From NCBI GenBank assembly GCA_022562275.1, contig JADFPP010000006.1, positions 1-64,000 of the forward strand: 64,000 nucleotides of DNA. The letters are read 5' to 3'. Below the pieces are notes generated by a model, which ran no database searches, had not been told where the DNA came from, and worked only from the letters and a program-made list of their open reading frames with translations. Positions 5,174-26,522 of the stretch are shown here, piece by piece (the stretch's first letter is position 1; every line of letters begins with the position of its first letter). The stretch comes from Bacteroidota bacterium. GTDB taxonomy: Bacteria; Bacteroidota; Ignavibacteria; Ignavibacteriales; Ignavibacteriaceae. Position numbers and translations under genes: made by a program.

Positions 5174-5177
5174 TTTT

Positions 5178-5240
5178 CTGTATCACAGCAGAATATTGTG
5201 TGTTAATTTAGTATAACACAGATTGCCAATCTGTGCAACA
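5178..5240 (+). repeat. REPIN-like double hairpin, left copy
   Basis: This is an imperfect hairpin (CACAG...TTGTG, 5184-5200) followed after ~15 bp by the hairpin CACAGATT-gcc-AATCTGTG (5217-5235). The same two-hairpin unit recurs at 5987-6050 on the other side of the RAYT gene, in the same orientation and about three-quarters identical. Two REPs in inverted orientation form a REPIN, the non-autonomous element moved by RAYT transposases. Confidence 0.75.
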
Positions 5241-5335
5241 AAGATAAATAGTACTCATTGCTGCAAATGCTGTTTAAGCACAAAGACTGTTTAAATTGTT
5301 TTTAATTACACGGACCGATGATTTGTGGTACATCT

Positions 5336-5956
5336 TTACAACACAATATAATCAGGATGACAATAGGTATATTTCCATTCTTTCCAATTGTTTACAAAGC
5401 CGGCAGTTACAGGATTCAGCAGCACATATCTAACAATAAAATATAACTCTTTGTCATCTCTCACCAATCGATCATAGCTTTCATCCTGCCAGAAAGTCCC
5501 GCTTTTGTTAAGAAGAAGGTTGCTCTTGCGTGCTGAAATTCTTTTAATTGATTGCATTATTTTGCTGATTCCTTTGTTACTTTCCAGCAATTCAAATATA
5601 AGATGGATGTGATTTGGCATTATGCAATAGCAAATAAGCTCATAATCCTTTCCATCAGGATAATGCAATGTGCTTCTACAAATATCAGCAACATCTGGAA
5701 TGCTTAGATGTTTTGCACCGAAGTTTCCTTTGCCCAGAATATCATCATACTTTTTTAGCAAACGCTTGAACCGAATTGTATCCAACCCCATATTATTTTT
5801 TGTTGATGATTTTATCTCCGCAACTAATTTTGATGGCAGCGAATCAGCCAGACGATAGGTGATAAAATATATTCCATCGTGATGATAAAAGTGGGGTAGG
5901 TTCCGCCTGTGAAAAGCGCCGCCTAACGGATTTTTATTGTAAGATTTACTGTTCAT
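5336..5956 (-). CDS. REP-associated tyrosine transposase (RAYT, Y1/HUH family)
   Basis: The product has the TnpA_REP signature. The opening NPLGGAFHRRNLPHFYHH is followed by YFITYRL, the HUH motif sits in CYCIMPNHIHLIF, and then come KRISARKSN and the Tyr-bearing SGTFWQDESYDRLVRDDKE with YVLLNPVTAGFV. RAYTs are single-copy, domesticated relatives of IS200/IS605 transposases that nick and move REP/REPIN hairpins. I prefer the ATG at 5954-5956 (206 residues). An upstream GTG at 5995 would lie inside the right REPIN hairpin. REPINs flank both sides and a related hairpin lies at 14020-14042. The frame is intact and the HUH motif present, so activity is possible. Confidence 0.88.
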   Translation of the reverse strand: MNSKSYNKNPLGGAFHRRNLPHFYHHDGIYFITYRLADSLPSKLVAEIKSSTKNNMGLDTIRFKRLLKKYDDILGKGNFGAKHLSIPDVADICRSTLHYPDGKDYELICYCIMPNHIHLIFELLESNKGISKIMQSIKRISARKSNLLLNKSGTFWQDESYDRLVRDDKELYFIVRYVLLNPVTAGFVNNWKEWKYTYCHPDYIVL

Positions 5957-5986
5957 TTTAAATAGTGGCTTCGTGTAAAATGTTTT

Positions 5987-6050
5987 CTGTATCACAGAAT
6001 AGTATTCTGTGTTAAATTTAATATAGCACAGATTGCTAATCTGTGCTACA
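5987..6050 (+). repeat. REPIN-like double hairpin, right copy
   Basis: It contains the perfect palindrome CACAGAATA-g-TATTCTGTG (5993-6011) and, 15 bp later, GCACAGATT-gct-AATCTGTGC (6026-6046). On the minus strand the second hairpin is preceded directly by GTAG (CTAC at 6046-6049 on the plus strand), the tetranucleotide E. coli TnpA_REP recognises at REP bases. The first hairpin is preceded on the plus strand by GTAT. Confidence 0.8.
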
Positions 6051-6062
6051 GATATAAATATT

Positions 6063-19819: not shown

Positions 19820-20160
19820 AATTTATATCTCCGGTTATTTATATTTCTTGTATTATTATAATTCAGTTAAAAACCATTAGATGTAACAGCAATGTATGGT
19901 TTGGTTAAGTACTTTAAGATTATAGTAGAAAGCGTGTGAGGTATGTGCAGACAATAATAGTACCATCAATACTACCAAAAAACGAAACTTCTTCTATCTT
20001 AAATTGTATTAATCGGAGAAAAGGTTTTATTTGGTGACATATTAAATGATTTTAAATATCATTTAAAAACGCATATAAGTGAAATAGCTTATTTGACTTT
20101 TGGTAATTGAATCAACATATTTATTTGCAACATCAGAAATGTAATAATATAAGTGCCGTT
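19820..20160. promoter_or_regulatory. Divergent intergenic region between aceA and ATP-grasp gene, with perfect palindrome
   Basis: The 341-bp spacer has no gene. At 20042-20066 there is a perfect inverted repeat, TTAAATGAT-tttaaat-ATCATTTAA (9-bp arms, 7-bp spacer), about 100 bp upstream of the ATP-grasp start. It could be an operator for either divergent gene; no matching regulator is identified. I see no convincing -33/-7 promoter elements. Confidence 0.45.
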
Positions 20161-21363
20161 ATGTCACATACTATTTTGTGTGTTTCCAGTTATGAAAAAG
20201 GACACGATTTTATGAGGGAATGTAAAGAACAGGGATGGAGGCTTCTTCTTTTAACTTCTGAAAGCCTGAAGAATGCGTCCTGGCCCCAGGAATCGATTGA
20301 TAAAACATTTTATATTCATGACAGAAACAAAGATTGGGAAATGAAAGATGTGATCTATGGAGTAAGTTTTATTGCACGTGAAGAGAAGATAGACCGCATT
20401 GTTGCACTTGATGATTATGATGTGGAGAAAGCTGCTTCGCTAAGGGAACATCTTCGTATTCCCGGTATGGGCGATACAACTGCCCGCTACTTCCGCGATA
20501 AGTTAGCTATGAGAGAAAGAGCTTCCGATGTTGGAATCCCGGTTCCCGAATTTCTTCATGTCTTAAATCACGATCAGATAAATAACTTTGCTGAAAAAGT
20601 ATCCTTCCCGATCATTGTAAAACCGCGAATGCAAGCCGGGGCATACGGATTGAAAAAAGTTCAGAACAAGGATGAATTATGGGATTGCATAAATAAACTT
20701 GGTGATGAACAGTCCTTCTTCTTAATGGAAAGATTTGTTTCAGGAAATATTTATCATGTTGATTCCATTTTTTATGAAAACGAAATTCGGTTTGCTCTTG
20801 CAAGTCAATATGGAAAGCCGCCGTTTGAGGTTGCTCACTCCGGCAGAGTGTTTACAAGCAGAACGGTCAGGCGTGGTTCGGAAACGGAACAGAAACTACT
20901 GGAACTGAATGAGAAAGTTATAAAAGCTATGGGTCTGGTTAGGGGTGTTTCTCATACCGAATTTATAGAAGCCGATAGTGACGGCAAATTTTATTTTCTT
21001 GAAACTTCAGCACGGGTTGGAGGAGCGCATCTTGCAGATCTTGTTGAGGCTGCATCCGGAATAAATCTTTGGCGGGAATGGGCAAAGATTGAAATTTTAA
21101 GAGGCGATGGGGAGTATTCGTATCCGGGGGTGCAAAACAATTATGCCGGAATAATACAATCGCTTGCAAAACAGGAATGGCCGGATCTTACTGCTTATGA
21201 TGATCCCGAAGTTATCTGGAAATTAAACAAACGATATCATGCAGGTTTGATCATTCGTTCCGATAAGCCTGAGAGGATTGAAGAGTTACTGGATAGCTAT
21301 TCCGATAGATTTTATAATGATTTTTTTGCAACTGCACCTATGAAGGAAAAGCCAAGTGACTAA
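20161..21363 (+). CDS. ATP-grasp domain enzyme of unknown substrate
   Basis: I start at the ATG at 20161 (400 residues, MSHTILCVSSYEKGHDFM); an upstream TTG at 20107 adds a stretch without family character. Residues 1-100 form a preATP-grasp fold and residues 110-310 the ATP-grasp domain. FPIIVKPRMQAGAYGLKKV is the nucleotide-binding Lys and Gly-rich loop, FLMERFVSGNIYHVD a metal/substrate strand, and HTEFIEADSDGKFYFLETSARVGG the metal-binding Glu/Asn region. ATP-grasp enzymes make C-N or C-S bonds through acylphosphates; carboxylate-amine ligase is the safe description. Its stop (TAA 21361-21363) overlaps the stop of the displaced hemN 3' end, so the two genes were once tail-to-tail neighbours. 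Confidence 0.83.
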   Translation: MSHTILCVSSYEKGHDFMRECKEQGWRLLLLTSESLKNASWPQESIDKTFYIHDRNKDWEMKDVIYGVSFIAREEKIDRIVALDDYDVEKAASLREHLRIPGMGDTTARYFRDKLAMRERASDVGIPVPEFLHVLNHDQINNFAEKVSFPIIVKPRMQAGAYGLKKVQNKDELWDCINKLGDEQSFFLMERFVSGNIYHVDSIFYENEIRFALASQYGKPPFEVAHSGRVFTSRTVRRGSETEQKLLELNEKVIKAMGLVRGVSHTEFIEADSDGKFYFLETSARVGGAHLADLVEAASGINLWREWAKIEILRGDGEYSYPGVQNNYAGIIQSLAKQEWPDLTAYDDPEVIWKLNKRYHAGLIIRSDKPERIEELLDSYSDRFYNDFFATAPMKEKPSD

Positions 21364-21445
21364 ACCGTGCGCGAGTACTTTGCCGCATCTTCCTTCCTCT
21401 CGATATAGCCATCGAAGTTCATAGCTATGTTGCGGATAAGGATGC
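21360..21445 (-). pseudogene. Displaced native 3' end of hemN
   Basis: The minus strand encodes LIRNIAMNFDGYIERKED followed by AAKYSRTV and TAG. Over 25 residues it differs from the HemN C-terminus at one residue (Ala for Lys), while the DNA differs at about 16 of 78 positions, mostly synonymous. It ends overlapping the ATP-grasp stop codon. This is the original end of hemN, cut off when the DUF1016 gene was inserted with its own copy of the hemN tail. Confidence 0.85.
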
Positions 21446-21455
21446 TTCTTGTAAC

Positions 21456-22577
21456 TTATACTTTTTGAAGTAATAAGTCTTGTAATTGTTTTTTGCTTGG
21501 CAAGTATAATCTGTATTCTCTTGCAAATATCCGATCGTTTTTTTCGGGAAGTGTGTATTCTACAACAGCTTTATTAGTTTGTTTACAGAGTACGATACCA
21601 ACCGTTTTATTTTCTTCTTTTGTTTTGATTTCACGATCATAAAAATTAACATACATTTGCATTTGACCGAGATCCTGATGTCTTAACTTGCCAATTTTTA
21701 AATCAATCAAAACAAAACATTTTAATATTCTGTTATAAAAGACTAAGTCTATGTAGAAATTATCTCCGTTAAAAGTTATTCTCTGCTGTCTGCTTTGGAA
21801 AAGAAAACCCTTACCTAATTCTAAAAGAAAATGCTCTAACTTATTTATTAGTGCGGTTTCTAATTCCGTCTCTGTGTAAACAGACTCTTCTTTCAGTTCC
21901 AGGAATTCCAGAACATAGGGCTCTTTTAACATATCAAGTGGCTGCGCAATTATTTGTCCTTTACGGCTTAATTCTTTTACTTTCTTTTTGTCTTTGCTTA
22001 ATGCGAGTCTTTCATAGAGAGAAGAATTATATTGTCTTTGAAGTTCACGAACAGACCAGTTATTGTTTGCAGTTTCTATTTCATAAAAATTTCTTTCTTC
22101 TTCGGTTTCAATACGCATTAAAAACATGTAATGTGTCCAGCTCAGTTTAAATAGTTTACTAAATTGTGTAATCATTGGTTGTGCAGATGTCATCTGTTCG
22201 GATTTGGCAACCTCTGACTGCCAAATTAGTGATCGAGAAAATTTTGATTTCGAAATCAGTGATTTCGTTTTTTCGGATTTGGCAACCAGTGATTGCCAAA
22301 TGTTTCTGTTTTCATAAAGTAAATAGAATTGTCGGAACGCTCGTAAATTCCTTTCAGAATAACCCTTAACAAAATCTTTAGTCAATTTTTTTGATAAATT
22401 CTTTAACGTCTTATCTGCATATGCAGCACGCTTTTTTCCTTTCTGTTCATTCTTAACAATAATTCTCCCAATATGATAATTTGTAAATACAAGGGTTGTG
22501 TTAATATTCTGTACAACAAAACTTTTTGCTTGTGCTATAAGCCATTTAATATCTGTATATAATTTTTCATTTTTCAT
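21456..22577 (-). CDS. DUF1016 / YhcG-family PD-(D/E)XK nuclease
   Basis: The 373-residue protein has the DUF1016 N-terminal region (LVFTNYHIGRIIVKNEQKG, then YSERNLRAFRQFYLLY and LSWTHYMFLMRI). Its C-terminal PD-(D/E)XK nuclease domain shows FYIDLVFYNRILKCFVLIDLK (D and D-x-K ligands) and QMQMYVNFYDRE. The family is a predicted DNA nuclease; its biological role is not settled. Between the two parts, about residues 92-135 form a repetitive insert (IWQSLVAKSEK...IWQSEVAKSEQ) made of palindromic DNA. The gene lies within 11 bp of the displaced hemN tail on one side and 18 bp of the functional hemN stop on the other, so it forms the whole cargo of an apparent insertion. Confidence 0.85.
   Translation of the reverse strand: MKNEKLYTDIKWLIAQAKSFVVQNINTTLVFTNYHIGRIIVKNEQKGKKRAAYADKTLKNLSKKLTKDFVKGYSERNLRAFRQFYLLYENRNIWQSLVAKSEKTKSLISKSKFSRSLIWQSEVAKSEQMTSAQPMITQFSKLFKLSWTHYMFLMRIETEEERNFYEIETANNNWSVRELQRQYNSSLYERLALSKDKKKVKELSRKGQIIAQPLDMLKEPYVLEFLELKEESVYTETELETALINKLEHFLLELGKGFLFQSRQQRITFNGDNFYIDLVFYNRILKCFVLIDLKIGKLRHQDLGQMQMYVNFYDREIKTKEENKTVGIVLCKQTNKAVVEYTLPEKNDRIFAREYRLYLPSKKQLQDLLLQKV
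22195..22305. repeat. Palindromic repeat insert inside the DUF1016 coding sequence
   Basis: Two copies of a unit beginning GATTTGGCAACC (22201 and 22275) each contain an inverted TTTGGCAA/TTGCCAAA-type pair. Between them lies TGATTTCGAAATCA, a perfect palindrome (about 22245-22258). The whole block stays in frame and encodes the redundant SLIWQSEVAKSEQ-like segment. Confidence 0.7.
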
Positions 22578-22595
22578 TTTTATTTAACTACACTT

Positions 22596-23996
22596 TCATA
22601 CTGTTCTAGAATACTTTGCCTTATCTTCCTTCCTTTCAATGTATCCATCAAAATTCATTGCTATGTTGCGGATGAGCAGTCTGCCCATATCTTTAACCTT
22701 AATGCCGTCATCAGATAGTTCAACCAACTCATCATTTTGCATCTCTCTCAGACCGCCTTCGCCGGAGTTCAGTCCCCGGGCAAAGTAATCTTTAAAGTTA
22801 ATATGGAATTTTTCTTCAAGTGATTTAAAGTCCAGTTCGAAATCGCACATTAAACGCATTATTACTTCTCTGCGAATGTGATCATCTTCGCTAAGCTTGT
22901 AACCTTTTGCCGTAGGAATTATTTCATCATCTAGCGATTTATAATATTCCTTTTCTGTTTTGTAATTTTGTGCGTAAATATTTTTTAACTGACTAATAGA
23001 TGTAATACCAAGCGCATAAAGATCGGTACCGGCGTTGGTACTGTATCCCTGAAAATTTCTGTAAAGTTTTTTTTCTTTAAGTGCTATAGATAACTCATCA
23101 TCCGGTTTAGCGAAGTGATCCATTCCAATAAAAACATAACCCGCATCAGTAAGCTGTTCGATTGATGATTTTAATATTTCCAACTTAACTTCAGGAATTG
23201 GAAGATCCTCCTGATGAATTAATGCCATATGTTTTTTTAACCATGGAACGTGGGCATAGTTAAATAATGCTATTCTATCCGGAGAAATATCAATAATTTT
23301 ATCAACAGTATCTGCAAAGCTTTTAGCTGTTTGGAAAGGCAATCCGTATATCAAATCGAGATTTATACTTTGATAACCAAGCTCTCTTACCCACTCAACG
23401 GCTTGTCGTGTAATATCTTCCGGCTGAATTCTGTTAATTGCTTTCTGAACCTTATCGTTAAAATCCTGAACACCCATGCTTATTCTGTTAAAACCGCTAT
23501 TTTTCAGTGCTTCAAGGTGGGCTTTTGTTAATTCACGCGGATCAATCTCGCAACTGTTTTCCGATCCGCCTGAGGCGGACTCTTTAAATTCGAATGATTT
23601 GTTGATGTACGAAGCAAGCAGGTCTATTTCATCCGGGTTTAAATGAGTTGGTGTTCCTCCGCCCCAATGGTGCTGTGCAACTTTCCTGTCGGGCAAAAGA
23701 TATGTTCTTAAAAGATCAATCTCTTTTTGAACATATTTTATGTATTCTTTTATGCGGTCTCGGTTTCTTGTTATAAGCATATTGCATCCGCAGAAAAAGC
23801 AAAGAGTATCGCAATAAGGAAGATGAAAATACAGGGAGAGATCGGGAAGATTGTTCCCGTAGTTTGTTTTAACTATTTCATCGATGTAATCTTCTTGTGT
23901 AAATTTTTCATTGAACTGAGGAGCAGTTGGATAACTGGTGTACCGCGGTCCGGGTTTATCATACTTCTTATATTTCTTTAAATCTATTTCAAACAT
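22596..23996 (-). CDS. hemN: Oxygen-independent coproporphyrinogen III oxidase (radical SAM)
   Basis: It decarboxylates coproporphyrinogen III to protoporphyrinogen IX without oxygen. The 466-residue protein begins with the HemN signature KYDKPGPRYTSYPTAP. The [4Fe-4S]/SAM motif is C62-x3-C66-x2-C69 (YCDTLCFFC), with a fourth Cys at 71 as in true HemN. WGGGTPTHL, EIDPRE, SMGVQDF and DLIYGLPFQT are conserved, and the C-terminal RNIAMNFDGYI is HemN-specific rather than HemW-like. Residues 139-147 (ESASGGSEN) are a short insertion coded by a palindrome at 23565-23579. The last ~27 codons are a diverged copy of the native tail left at 21360-21445. It is the terminal gene of the hem operon, 45 bp from hemE. 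Confidence 0.95.
   Translation of the reverse strand: MFEIDLKKYKKYDKPGPRYTSYPTAPQFNEKFTQEDYIDEIVKTNYGNNLPDLSLYFHLPYCDTLCFFCGCNMLITRNRDRIKEYIKYVQKEIDLLRTYLLPDRKVAQHHWGGGTPTHLNPDEIDLLASYINKSFEFKESASGGSENSCEIDPRELTKAHLEALKNSGFNRISMGVQDFNDKVQKAINRIQPEDITRQAVEWVRELGYQSINLDLIYGLPFQTAKSFADTVDKIIDISPDRIALFNYAHVPWLKKHMALIHQEDLPIPEVKLEILKSSIEQLTDAGYVFIGMDHFAKPDDELSIALKEKKLYRNFQGYSTNAGTDLYALGITSISQLKNIYAQNYKTEKEYYKSLDDEIIPTAKGYKLSEDDHIRREVIMRLMCDFELDFKSLEEKFHINFKDYFARGLNSGEGGLREMQNDELVELSDDGIKVKDMGRLLIRNIAMNFDGYIERKEDKAKYSRTV
23565..23579. repeat. Palindromic element inserted in hemN
   Basis: TCCGCC-TGA-GGCGGA is a perfect 6-bp inverted repeat inside hemN. It encodes part of ESASGGSEN where E. coli HemN has a shorter segment before EVDPRE. 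Similar GC-rich palindromes are common as dispersed repeats in AT-rich genomes of this group. Confidence 0.6.
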
Positions 23997-25127: not shown

Positions 25128-26522
25128 TTAATTTTTATAGTAGTTTATTATTTTATTTATTAATCCATCACTTGTATACTCGTCCGGCATTATATTAACC
25201 TTTACTCTTCTGTTTTCAATTGTAGTTTTTGTTGTTGGTCCGATTGCAGCTATATCATATTCTTTAAAGTATTCTGCAGGATTAATAATATTAAGTATTT
25301 GTAAAAAGTTTTCAAATGTTGATGGACTTGTAAAAATAAACAGATCGGGATTACTTTTATTTAACTTTTCCAAATTATATTTAATATGCTCCTTTGTTGG
25401 AAGTGAAACATTGTAAACGGGAACAGATTTAATAATTGCACCTAAATCTTTCAATCCTCTCGGCAGCTCTTCTCTTCCTATTGCAGAACGAGGAATAAAA
25501 ACAATTTTATCTTTTATATCAAATTTAGAGAGTTCTTCGATCACTCCCTTTGCGCTGAATTGTTTTGGAATAATTTTCACAGGAATGTTATATTTATTGC
25601 AAACTAACGCGGTTTTATTTCCAACGGCAACAATTCTTTTCTTGTTGAAATTCATACTAACATTTAGTTCTTTGTATCGTATGCTAAACATCTGAACTGC
25701 GTGAGCAGAAGTAAAAATTATAAAATCTATTTTATCATGTTTTAGAACAATGGAATCAAAAGCATCCCAATCAAGAGGCGGAACAATTTCGAGAGTAGGA
25801 AATACGATTACCTTTGCTCCAAACCTTGTTAATGCAGAAGCAGATTCTTGGGATTGCTCAACTGTTCTGGTTATTACTATTGTTTTCTCTTTTAATGGAA
25901 GCACAACATTGTTCTGAAATCCGGAGTAGAGTGCATGAAGAAAAAATTCAAACAACTTTTCTCTTTCAGTTATTTTTTGTTCTTCACTTAATTTTCGATT
26001 GATGTCTCTTTCAACCGTTCCGTAAATACTCCCCAGTATTGAATGGGCTGTGAATTCATCATCAACATTTCGGAAAAGATCATTATTTATTCCTTCACGG
26101 ATAATTCCGGATAATTGTGATTTTAGCTGTCCCTCTAGGAAGCGCAATTCATCACACAAGTCACTTTCGGAATTAAGTGATTCTCTTTTATACATCAGAA
26201 AGAAATTCTGATATTTCATCATAAACATATAAACATGTATTGTATATGAACGAAGAGAATCAATGCTGTTGTGTTCATTTTTTATTTTTTTGGTAAGAGA
26301 GTCAAGAAGATTTTTCATTCTTAAGCTCATTATAGAAAAGTAGAGCTCTTCCTTAGATGTGAAATAGTTATAAACTGTTCCTTTGGCAACACCAATCATC
26401 TTTGCAACATCTTCCATCATAACTTCATGATAACTTTTCTGCGAGAAAAGATCAGCAGCTGCTTCAAGTATACGTTCACTTTTAATCCCCTTTTTAACCC
26501 TTCTTTTTTCTTTTACTAACAT
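25128..26522 (-). CDS. hemD: TetR-family regulator fused to uroporphyrinogen-III synthase
   Basis: The 464-residue protein has two complete modules. Residues 12-205 are a TetR repressor, with a helix-turn-helix at about 37-56 (MEDVAKMIGVAKGTVYNYF) after ERILEAAADLFSQKS and a helical ligand-binding/dimer part. Residues 212-464 are HemD, which cyclises hydroxymethylbilane to uroporphyrinogen III. It begins KTIVITRTVEQSQESASALT and carries FTSAHAVQMF, AVGNKTA, FIPRSAIGREELP, FTSPSTFENF, AAIGPTTKTT and YTSDGLI. No stop or start separates the two. The gene lies in the hem operon between the lipoprotein gene (8 bp) and hemE. TetR-type palindromes occur in the operon promoter (30219-30235, 30273-30286), so autoregulation is likely but inferred. 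Confidence 0.93.
   Translation of the reverse strand: MLVKEKRRVKKGIKSERILEAAADLFSQKSYHEVMMEDVAKMIGVAKGTVYNYFTSKEELYFSIMSLRMKNLLDSLTKKIKNEHNSIDSLRSYTIHVYMFMMKYQNFFLMYKRESLNSESDLCDELRFLEGQLKSQLSGIIREGINNDLFRNVDDEFTAHSILGSIYGTVERDINRKLSEEQKITEREKLFEFFLHALYSGFQNNVVLPLKEKTIVITRTVEQSQESASALTRFGAKVIVFPTLEIVPPLDWDAFDSIVLKHDKIDFIIFTSAHAVQMFSIRYKELNVSMNFNKKRIVAVGNKTALVCNKYNIPVKIIPKQFSAKGVIEELSKFDIKDKIVFIPRSAIGREELPRGLKDLGAIIKSVPVYNVSLPTKEHIKYNLEKLNKSNPDLFIFTSPSTFENFLQILNIINPAEYFKEYDIAAIGPTTKTTIENRRVKVNIMPDEYTSDGLINKIINYYKN

Follow-up and report, generated by a model that had tools for sequence, protein, structure and literature searches.

A DUF1016 nuclease gene between an attached and a displaced copy of the hemN tail in an Ignavibacteriaceae genome: probable arrival with an imported gene end

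A 64,000-nt stretch of Ignavibacteriaceae DNA (hereafter the window, from the genome named G000) contains a gene for a predicted DUF1016 nuclease inserted at the 3' end of hemN, with one copy of the last hemN codons attached to the gene and a second copy displaced beyond the insert. The comparisons described below indicate that an imported hemN 3' end, together with the DUF1016 gene, was probably appended to the resident hemN by one-sided homologous recombination, with non-homologous joining at the cargo end. This mode of insertion without an integrase is common in this family, where it is often used for small selfish or defence-type genes.

Results

The hemN tail is present twice around a single DUF1016 gene

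The features of the locus are given below, the hemN-attached tail copy being designated P and the displaced copy D.

20161..21363, plus strand: ATP-grasp gene, convergent native neighbour (likely start ATG at 20161; ORF listed from TTG at 20107)
21360..21443, minus strand: displaced, presumably native hemN tail (D), 27 codons and a stop codon, adjoining the stop of the convergent ATP-grasp gene
21444..21458, minus strand: right junction, with the DUF1016 stop codon TAA and the displaced tail directly after it (from sequence comparison)
21456..22577, minus strand: DUF1016 (YhcG) gene, predicted PD-(D/E)XK nuclease of 373 aa, the cargo (profile match)
22578..22595, minus strand: 18-nt spacer from the hemN stop to the DUF1016 start
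22596..22697, minus strand: attached hemN tail (P), last 34 codons including the stop (pairwise tail comparison)
22698..23996, minus strand: hemN body, which below about 23880 is a recombined tract similar to the relative G004
22596-23996, minus strand: complete, intact hemN, oxygen-independent coproporphyrinogen III oxidase (PF04055 and PF06969)

The two tails form a direct repeat (D1) of 101 nt with 74% identity, positions 21364-21464 against 22600-22700, and the last 27 codons are in frame in both copies, which confirms an earlier note, made from the sequence alone, that the tail occurs once joined to hemN and once beyond the DUF1016 gene. The translated displaced tail reads ILIRNIAMNFDGYIERKEDAAKYSRTV and the attached one LLIRNIAMNFDGYIERKEDKAKYSRTV, each followed by a stop codon. 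P and D differ at 20 of 84 bases and at two of 27 residues (L to I and K to A); the mostly synonymous character of the divergence was correctly recognised in that note, and these counts replace its figures of about 16 in 78 bases and one in 25 residues. As it had also stated, the D stop codon (21360-21362) overlaps that of the ATP-grasp gene (21361-21363), and the host hemN has kept its frame and is intact. The open frame of D comprises 31 codons only, which rules out that it belongs to a full second hemN. An inverted-orientation control over 864 kb yielded matches of the same kind only between paralogues and no true case, so that the hemN tail repeat is not attributable to chance. Within the 64-kb window, no further displaced gene end with cargo was found.

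DUF1016 is the sole gene between the hemN repeats, where neither a tyrosine nor a serine recombinase was present; the description of the cargo as a single PD-(D/E)XK gene lacking an integrase thus holds. No methyltransferase accompanies the nuclease gene at this locus. Both domains of the protein were matched, the N-terminal one by PF17761 (E 1.6e-35) and the C-terminal one by PF06250 (E 1.8e-54). The predicted active site consists of D277 and D292-x-K294, and D277, D292 and K294 are invariant among eight homologues (YhcG_C match). The protein also matches the PADLOC defence candidate PDC-S02, and a sequence search for a solved structure of a DUF1016 relative returned none. Its predicted role in the cell is most likely that of a DNA nuclease of the selfish or anti-phage type. 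Two 41-nt direct repeats (83%) lie in the N-terminal domain (22186-22301), in its least conserved stretch.

Other features of the window were recorded as well. A PIN/MazE-type toxin-antitoxin pair (377-1645) is located between intergenic direct repeats of 132-136 nt (82%), and a Y1 (IS200-like) transposase gene (5174-6060) between 78-nt repeats (86%) holding a palindrome of the GCACAGATTGC...GCAATCTGTGC type. Beside hemE and hemN, a TetR-type DNA-binding domain is fused to uroporphyrinogen-III synthase (HEM4) in one 464-aa frame (25128-26522), and corresponding ORFs of 468-484 aa occur in same-genus genomes.

Uninterrupted junctions and the same insertion in relatives

In two genomes of the same genus that lack DUF1016 (G004 and G001), the hemN stop directly abuts the ATP-grasp stop with nothing in between, and the orthologues of the ATP-grasp gene stand at that same junction. 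The comparison with uninterrupted relatives that the earlier note had proposed could therefore be made, and neither genome has a duplicated tail. Since the neighbourhood of D is identical to the hemN/ATP-grasp junction of G004 and G001, D occupies the position of the former native tail.

The insertion was also found outside the window genome. In G003 (same genus), hemN is followed by DUF1016, and the end of DUF1016 with the displaced tail is found on another contig; the gene after D matches the gene after the uninterrupted hemN of G002 (49% aa identity). G096, from another genus, has the full arrangement of hemN, DUF1016 and tail, with copies that are 88% identical. The spacer between hemN and DUF1016 is likewise short in G003 and G096, and in all three genomes the DUF1016 stop marks the start of the displaced tail, which corresponds to about codon 433 of hemN. 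In G096 the DUF1016 frame ends early, and the displaced tail starts at the position of that stop. A single junction position at hemN in different hosts is predicted by a homing endonuclease gene, and by ordinary recombination too. The DUF1016 proteins of G000 and G096 share 79% identity; the next relatives (63-70%) are not encoded at hemN.

Identity between G000 and G003 is 93% in the P tail and 69-81% elsewhere in hemN. This similarity suggests that the hemN tail may travel together with DUF1016; it is only suggestive because the last 34 hemN codons are strongly conserved in all genomes, and its use as proof of co-transfer was weakened for the same reason. The proposal that DUF1016 and the tail co-diverge as one unit was unsupported (0.76 for the N-terminal part, 0.86 for the C-terminal part and 0.93 for the tail).

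Other arrangements around hemN were observed in this set. At hemN of G006 (another genus; L013 2878-4269, L013/L096), a partial displaced tail, an AAA/DUF4143 gene and a second partial hemN tail follow in that order, the first partial displaced tail being broken by a 21-nt palindromic stretch, CCTGCCTGCCGGCAGGCAGG. This arrangement represents repeated insertions at one gene end. In G033 (contig 90; L037 4350-4448), an isolated 33-codon hemN tail lies at a great distance from hemN, directly after an unrelated 149-aa gene. In G016 (L045 1-4109), a MetH-like methionine synthase beside hemN has an apparent in-frame DUF559-type endonuclease segment, recognised by eye.

The attached copy is similar to that of another lineage

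Comparison with G004 gave 88.6% identity for hemN between 22680 and 23880, against 78.4% for hemE, 74.7% for the ATP-grasp gene and 73.8% for D. The first 116 nt of hemN were 79% identical, so the recombined tract extends from about codon 40 through the P tail. The difference between hemN and hemE is significant (Fisher 6e-11); in all nine other genome pairs the two identities are at most 0.04 apart, and only the pair G000-G004 departs (0.876 versus 0.785). This mosaic identity implies that most of hemN, with P and presumably DUF1016, would have been imported from a lineage near G004, D being the native tail. The earlier suggestion of a nuclease gene accompanied on arrival by the hemN tail of another lineage agrees with the foreign-like P and the native-like D; it has to be corrected in that the import extends to most of hemN and not to the tail alone. 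No donor genome with P and DUF1016 next to a G004-like hemN was found.

A second identity step was present in the window genome at rarA, where a DUF4143 gene is inserted. The rarA body is 80.1% identical to G004, the P tail plus about 90 nt beyond it 92.0% (Fisher 2.4e-5), and D 74%. The step lies approximately at the point where D starts, and the imported tract begins about there. At dprA and tetR, no import step was detected, P and D being about equally distant from G004; a close donor and a local duplication would fit these two loci equally well.

Other target genes and cargo types

A duplicated gene end was found in about 5-7 of 55 DUF1016 loci of the family, including hsdM, an unnamed gene and the 5' end of citF, and in very few of 76 distant loci. 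A Saprospiraceae genome, outside the class, has DUF1016 followed by a displaced psuG tail (L168), a case found only by the wider search. The search for other DUF1016 genes with duplicated host ends, suggested beforehand, was thus successful for a minority of loci; a duplicated gene end as a universal property of DUF1016 was rejected on these counts. Nor is the phenomenon specific to DUF1016. Among AAA/DUF4143 genes, 12 of 26 are flanked by direct repeats, one of them the ychF tail, and this family matches the PADLOC candidate PDC-S01.

An unbiased scan of 400 kb of G006 revealed insertions at nuoF (VapBC), at a methionine gamma-lyase type gene (MGL; MNT/HepT pair), at DinB (DUF4143) and at citF. 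In 219 kb of the window genome, the targets were tetR, with a likely toxin-antitoxin pair recognised by eye that had no Pfam match, an ABC gene (ImmA-type/PIN pair), dprA (a membrane glycosyltransferase-like, PMT-like gene) and rarA (DUF4143). The target gene names (nuoF, ychF, rarA and so on) were assigned by eye from the sequences. Many unbiased-scan matches corresponded to paralogous C-terminal secretion domains (SGVYFY...KKMLLK) or response regulators and were dropped by eye. Contig 18 of the window genome and the G023 stretch were chosen because they hold DUF4143 genes, so that insertion density is only indicative. In 200 kb of E. coli K-12, used as control, no displaced gene end was found. 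These scans, together with the inverted control and E. coli K-12, supersede a first background test (4 of 164 genes), which was too small and mixed with neighbouring insertions. On contig 18 (L264 12320-19001), dprA and rarA, which are convergent neighbours in G004, each carry an insertion and a displaced tail, back to back.

Duplicated, diverged gene ends occurred in direct orientation only and across many cargo families. The duplicated segments measure about 60 to 400 nt and differ in sequence, with no common core seen, and citF and the ABC gene were struck at the 5' end. In 9 of 11 loci, D starts at most 30 nt from the last stop of the cargo and sometimes overlaps it, in which case host sequence supplies the stop region.

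Divergence between attached and displaced copies

When P and D were pooled over 12 loci, 34% of synonymous (pS 0.34) and 6.5% of nonsynonymous sites differed (pN/pS 0.19), a synonymous excess with p of about 1e-32; the ratio was 0.17 when the three near-identical loci (ychF, citF and the ABC gene) were left out. The differences are mostly synonymous at hemN, rarA, hsdM, nuoF, MGL and DinB. Because a dead copy would change mostly at nonsynonymous sites, most copies had already diverged as working gene ends before insertion. Synonymous sites hardly differ between the copies at ychF (pS 0.05, pN 0.06), citF and the ABC gene, and a close donor or a local duplication would account for these three loci equally well.

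Discussion

Proposed mechanism and alternatives

The explanation we consider probable is the addition of an imported hemN 3' end with DUF1016 at the resident gene end. Incoming DNA from a related lineage would carry the hemN 3' end and DUF1016, and would recombine on one side by homology inside hemN, where the mosaic identity is observed; the upstream reach of the import likewise suggests homologous recombination through hemN. At the opposite side, non-homologous joining would connect the cargo end with the beginning of the resident tail; the junction itself is abrupt. The incoming tail would then complete hemN while the native tail remained as a fragment. A homologous join with donor sequence up to it is seen in the hemN and rarA tracts, and a non-homologous one where the DUF1016 stop meets hemN at about codon 433. 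The likely route would be RecA-dependent integration of transformed DNA, either through a single crossover of an end-joined circle or through homology-facilitated illegitimate recombination; a ComEC-family competence protein is encoded in the window genome, and also in 10 of 14 control genomes. Once formed, the locus may have spread among relatives by ordinary recombination in its homologous flanks, as the same junction in three species suggests. In E. coli, one-sided homology gave 56 of 60 clones with a partial gene duplication, mostly by a single crossover after circularisation, and the duplications were 109-950 bp long in the 14 clones sequenced (PMC3240628). A similar route has been proposed for Vibrio T6SS immunity arrays (PMC5361080).

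In 9 of 11 loci D starts no more than 30 nt from the cargo stop, which is tighter than random fragment ends predict and counts against this explanation. In another reading, tail and cargo would form a defined mobile unit with its right end at the cargo stop codon, moved by a yet-undescribed dedicated machinery (possibly the cargo nuclease for DUF1016 and DUF4143) while the recoded gene end rescues the target, that is, a natural home-and-rescue element; we regard this as unlikely. Homing in the stricter sense, in which DUF1016 cuts the hemN tail of the empty allele, repair copies in the nuclease gene with a cut-resistant recoded tail and the native tail stays behind, appears improbable. In its favour, the three hemN insertions, which span two genera, have a common junction position and encode related DUF1016 proteins, and most differences between the tails are synonymous. 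The predicted active-site residues are conserved, so that by sequence this is a nuclease with an intact active site, as a homing endonuclease should be. However, duplicated gene ends are missing at most DUF1016 genes, P shows no clear recoding of the bases near the junction, and the same architecture occurs with cargo that lacks such nucleases (VapBC, MNT-HepT, other toxin-antitoxin pairs and the PMT-like gene). As AAA/DUF4143, toxin-antitoxin and glycosyltransferase-like cargo behave alike, a cargo-encoded nuclease cannot be the general agent, and nuclease homing was dropped as a general mechanism.

A local target duplication, with resident sequence duplicated on insertion of the cargo and the copies diverging later, would produce the observed geometry, which is that of an insertion with long target duplication, and suits the near-identical copies at ychF, citF and the ABC gene. 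This origin is equally doubtful for the window locus, given that displaced copies are non-coding and yet differ mostly at synonymous sites at hemN, rarA, hsdM, nuoF, MGL and DinB, and that hemN and rarA combine a foreign-like P with a D of background-level identity. Far less credit can be given to an integrative element for which the gene end serves as attachment site and whose site-specific recombinase has been lost or acts in trans: the regenerated 3' ends and the fixed hemN junction resemble integration into gene ends, but the recombinase is absent from the locus, the targets are many and unrelated, with citF and the ABC gene struck at their 5' ends, and the duplicated segments of about 60 to 400 nt differ in sequence and show no common core. 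An assembly or binning artefact joining two hemN alleles is hardly conceivable, even though the window genome consists of 148 contigs and the G003 insertion is split over two, since hemN insertions occur in three species and the same architecture in several genomes, two of which are single-contig genomes (G006 and G023).

Relationship to known systems

Integrases can regenerate the 3' ends of protein genes, as e14 does in icd, where the element supplies a new end with synonymous differences. The resemblance to this process pointed out earlier applies to the outcome; it does not apply to the means, for here there is no integrase, no common attachment core and there are many targets.

This architecture is already known under the name insertion with long target duplication; minimal mobile elements are a related case. 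The former was described by Nobusato et al. (2000) for restriction-modification genes of Helicobacter pylori (PMC1643837, PMC3874152). Like the cases in those accounts, ours consist of a selfish-type gene flanked by host-derived direct repeats about 100 bp long (101 nt and 74% at hemN, 78-401 nt at other loci), lack a recombinase, and have an uninterrupted single copy in relatives (G004 and G001 for the window, G002 for G003). They differ from the cases described there in the cargo, which is DUF1016, DUF4143 or toxin-antitoxin genes and not restriction-modification genes (absent as cargo at hemN; one other case lies in the hsdM locus), in the often strongly diverged copies, and in the foreign appearance of the attached copy at hemN and rarA. 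With minimal mobile elements (Saunders and Snyder 2002) they share the exchange of whole-gene cassettes between conserved genes by homologous recombination in the flanks, without an integrase; the definition, in the form quoted in PMC3082526, is silent on the duplication and displacement of a gene end. Homology-facilitated illegitimate recombination and circularised-fragment crossover (PMC3240628, PMC5361080) likewise have one homologous and one non-homologous side and retain 3' remnants, but the known cases come from the laboratory or from T6SS loci, and here the process is deduced from genomes. Both main cargo families match single-gene PADLOC defence candidates only, PDC-S02 (DUF1016) and PDC-S01 (DUF4143). 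Among the papers searched for DUF1016 and DUF4143, no title or abstract pointed to a link with such insertions. Three things are new here: the families that serve as cargo, how frequent such insertions appear to be in this lineage, and the evidence for import of the attached copy.

Biological meaning

Through this simple mode of insertion, the very common and poorly understood single genes DUF1016 and DUF4143, and also toxin-antitoxin pairs, can pass between chromosomes without a transposase or integrase while the target gene remains unharmed. It also leaves behind a useful mark: the end of the neighbouring gene is present in a displaced, synonymous copy, by which insertions can be found, their donor traced and the native copy told from the imported one. 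That such genes are found in defence loci, hsdM for example, may be due in part to the insertion mode, a point to consider when neighbouring genes are used to predict a defence function.
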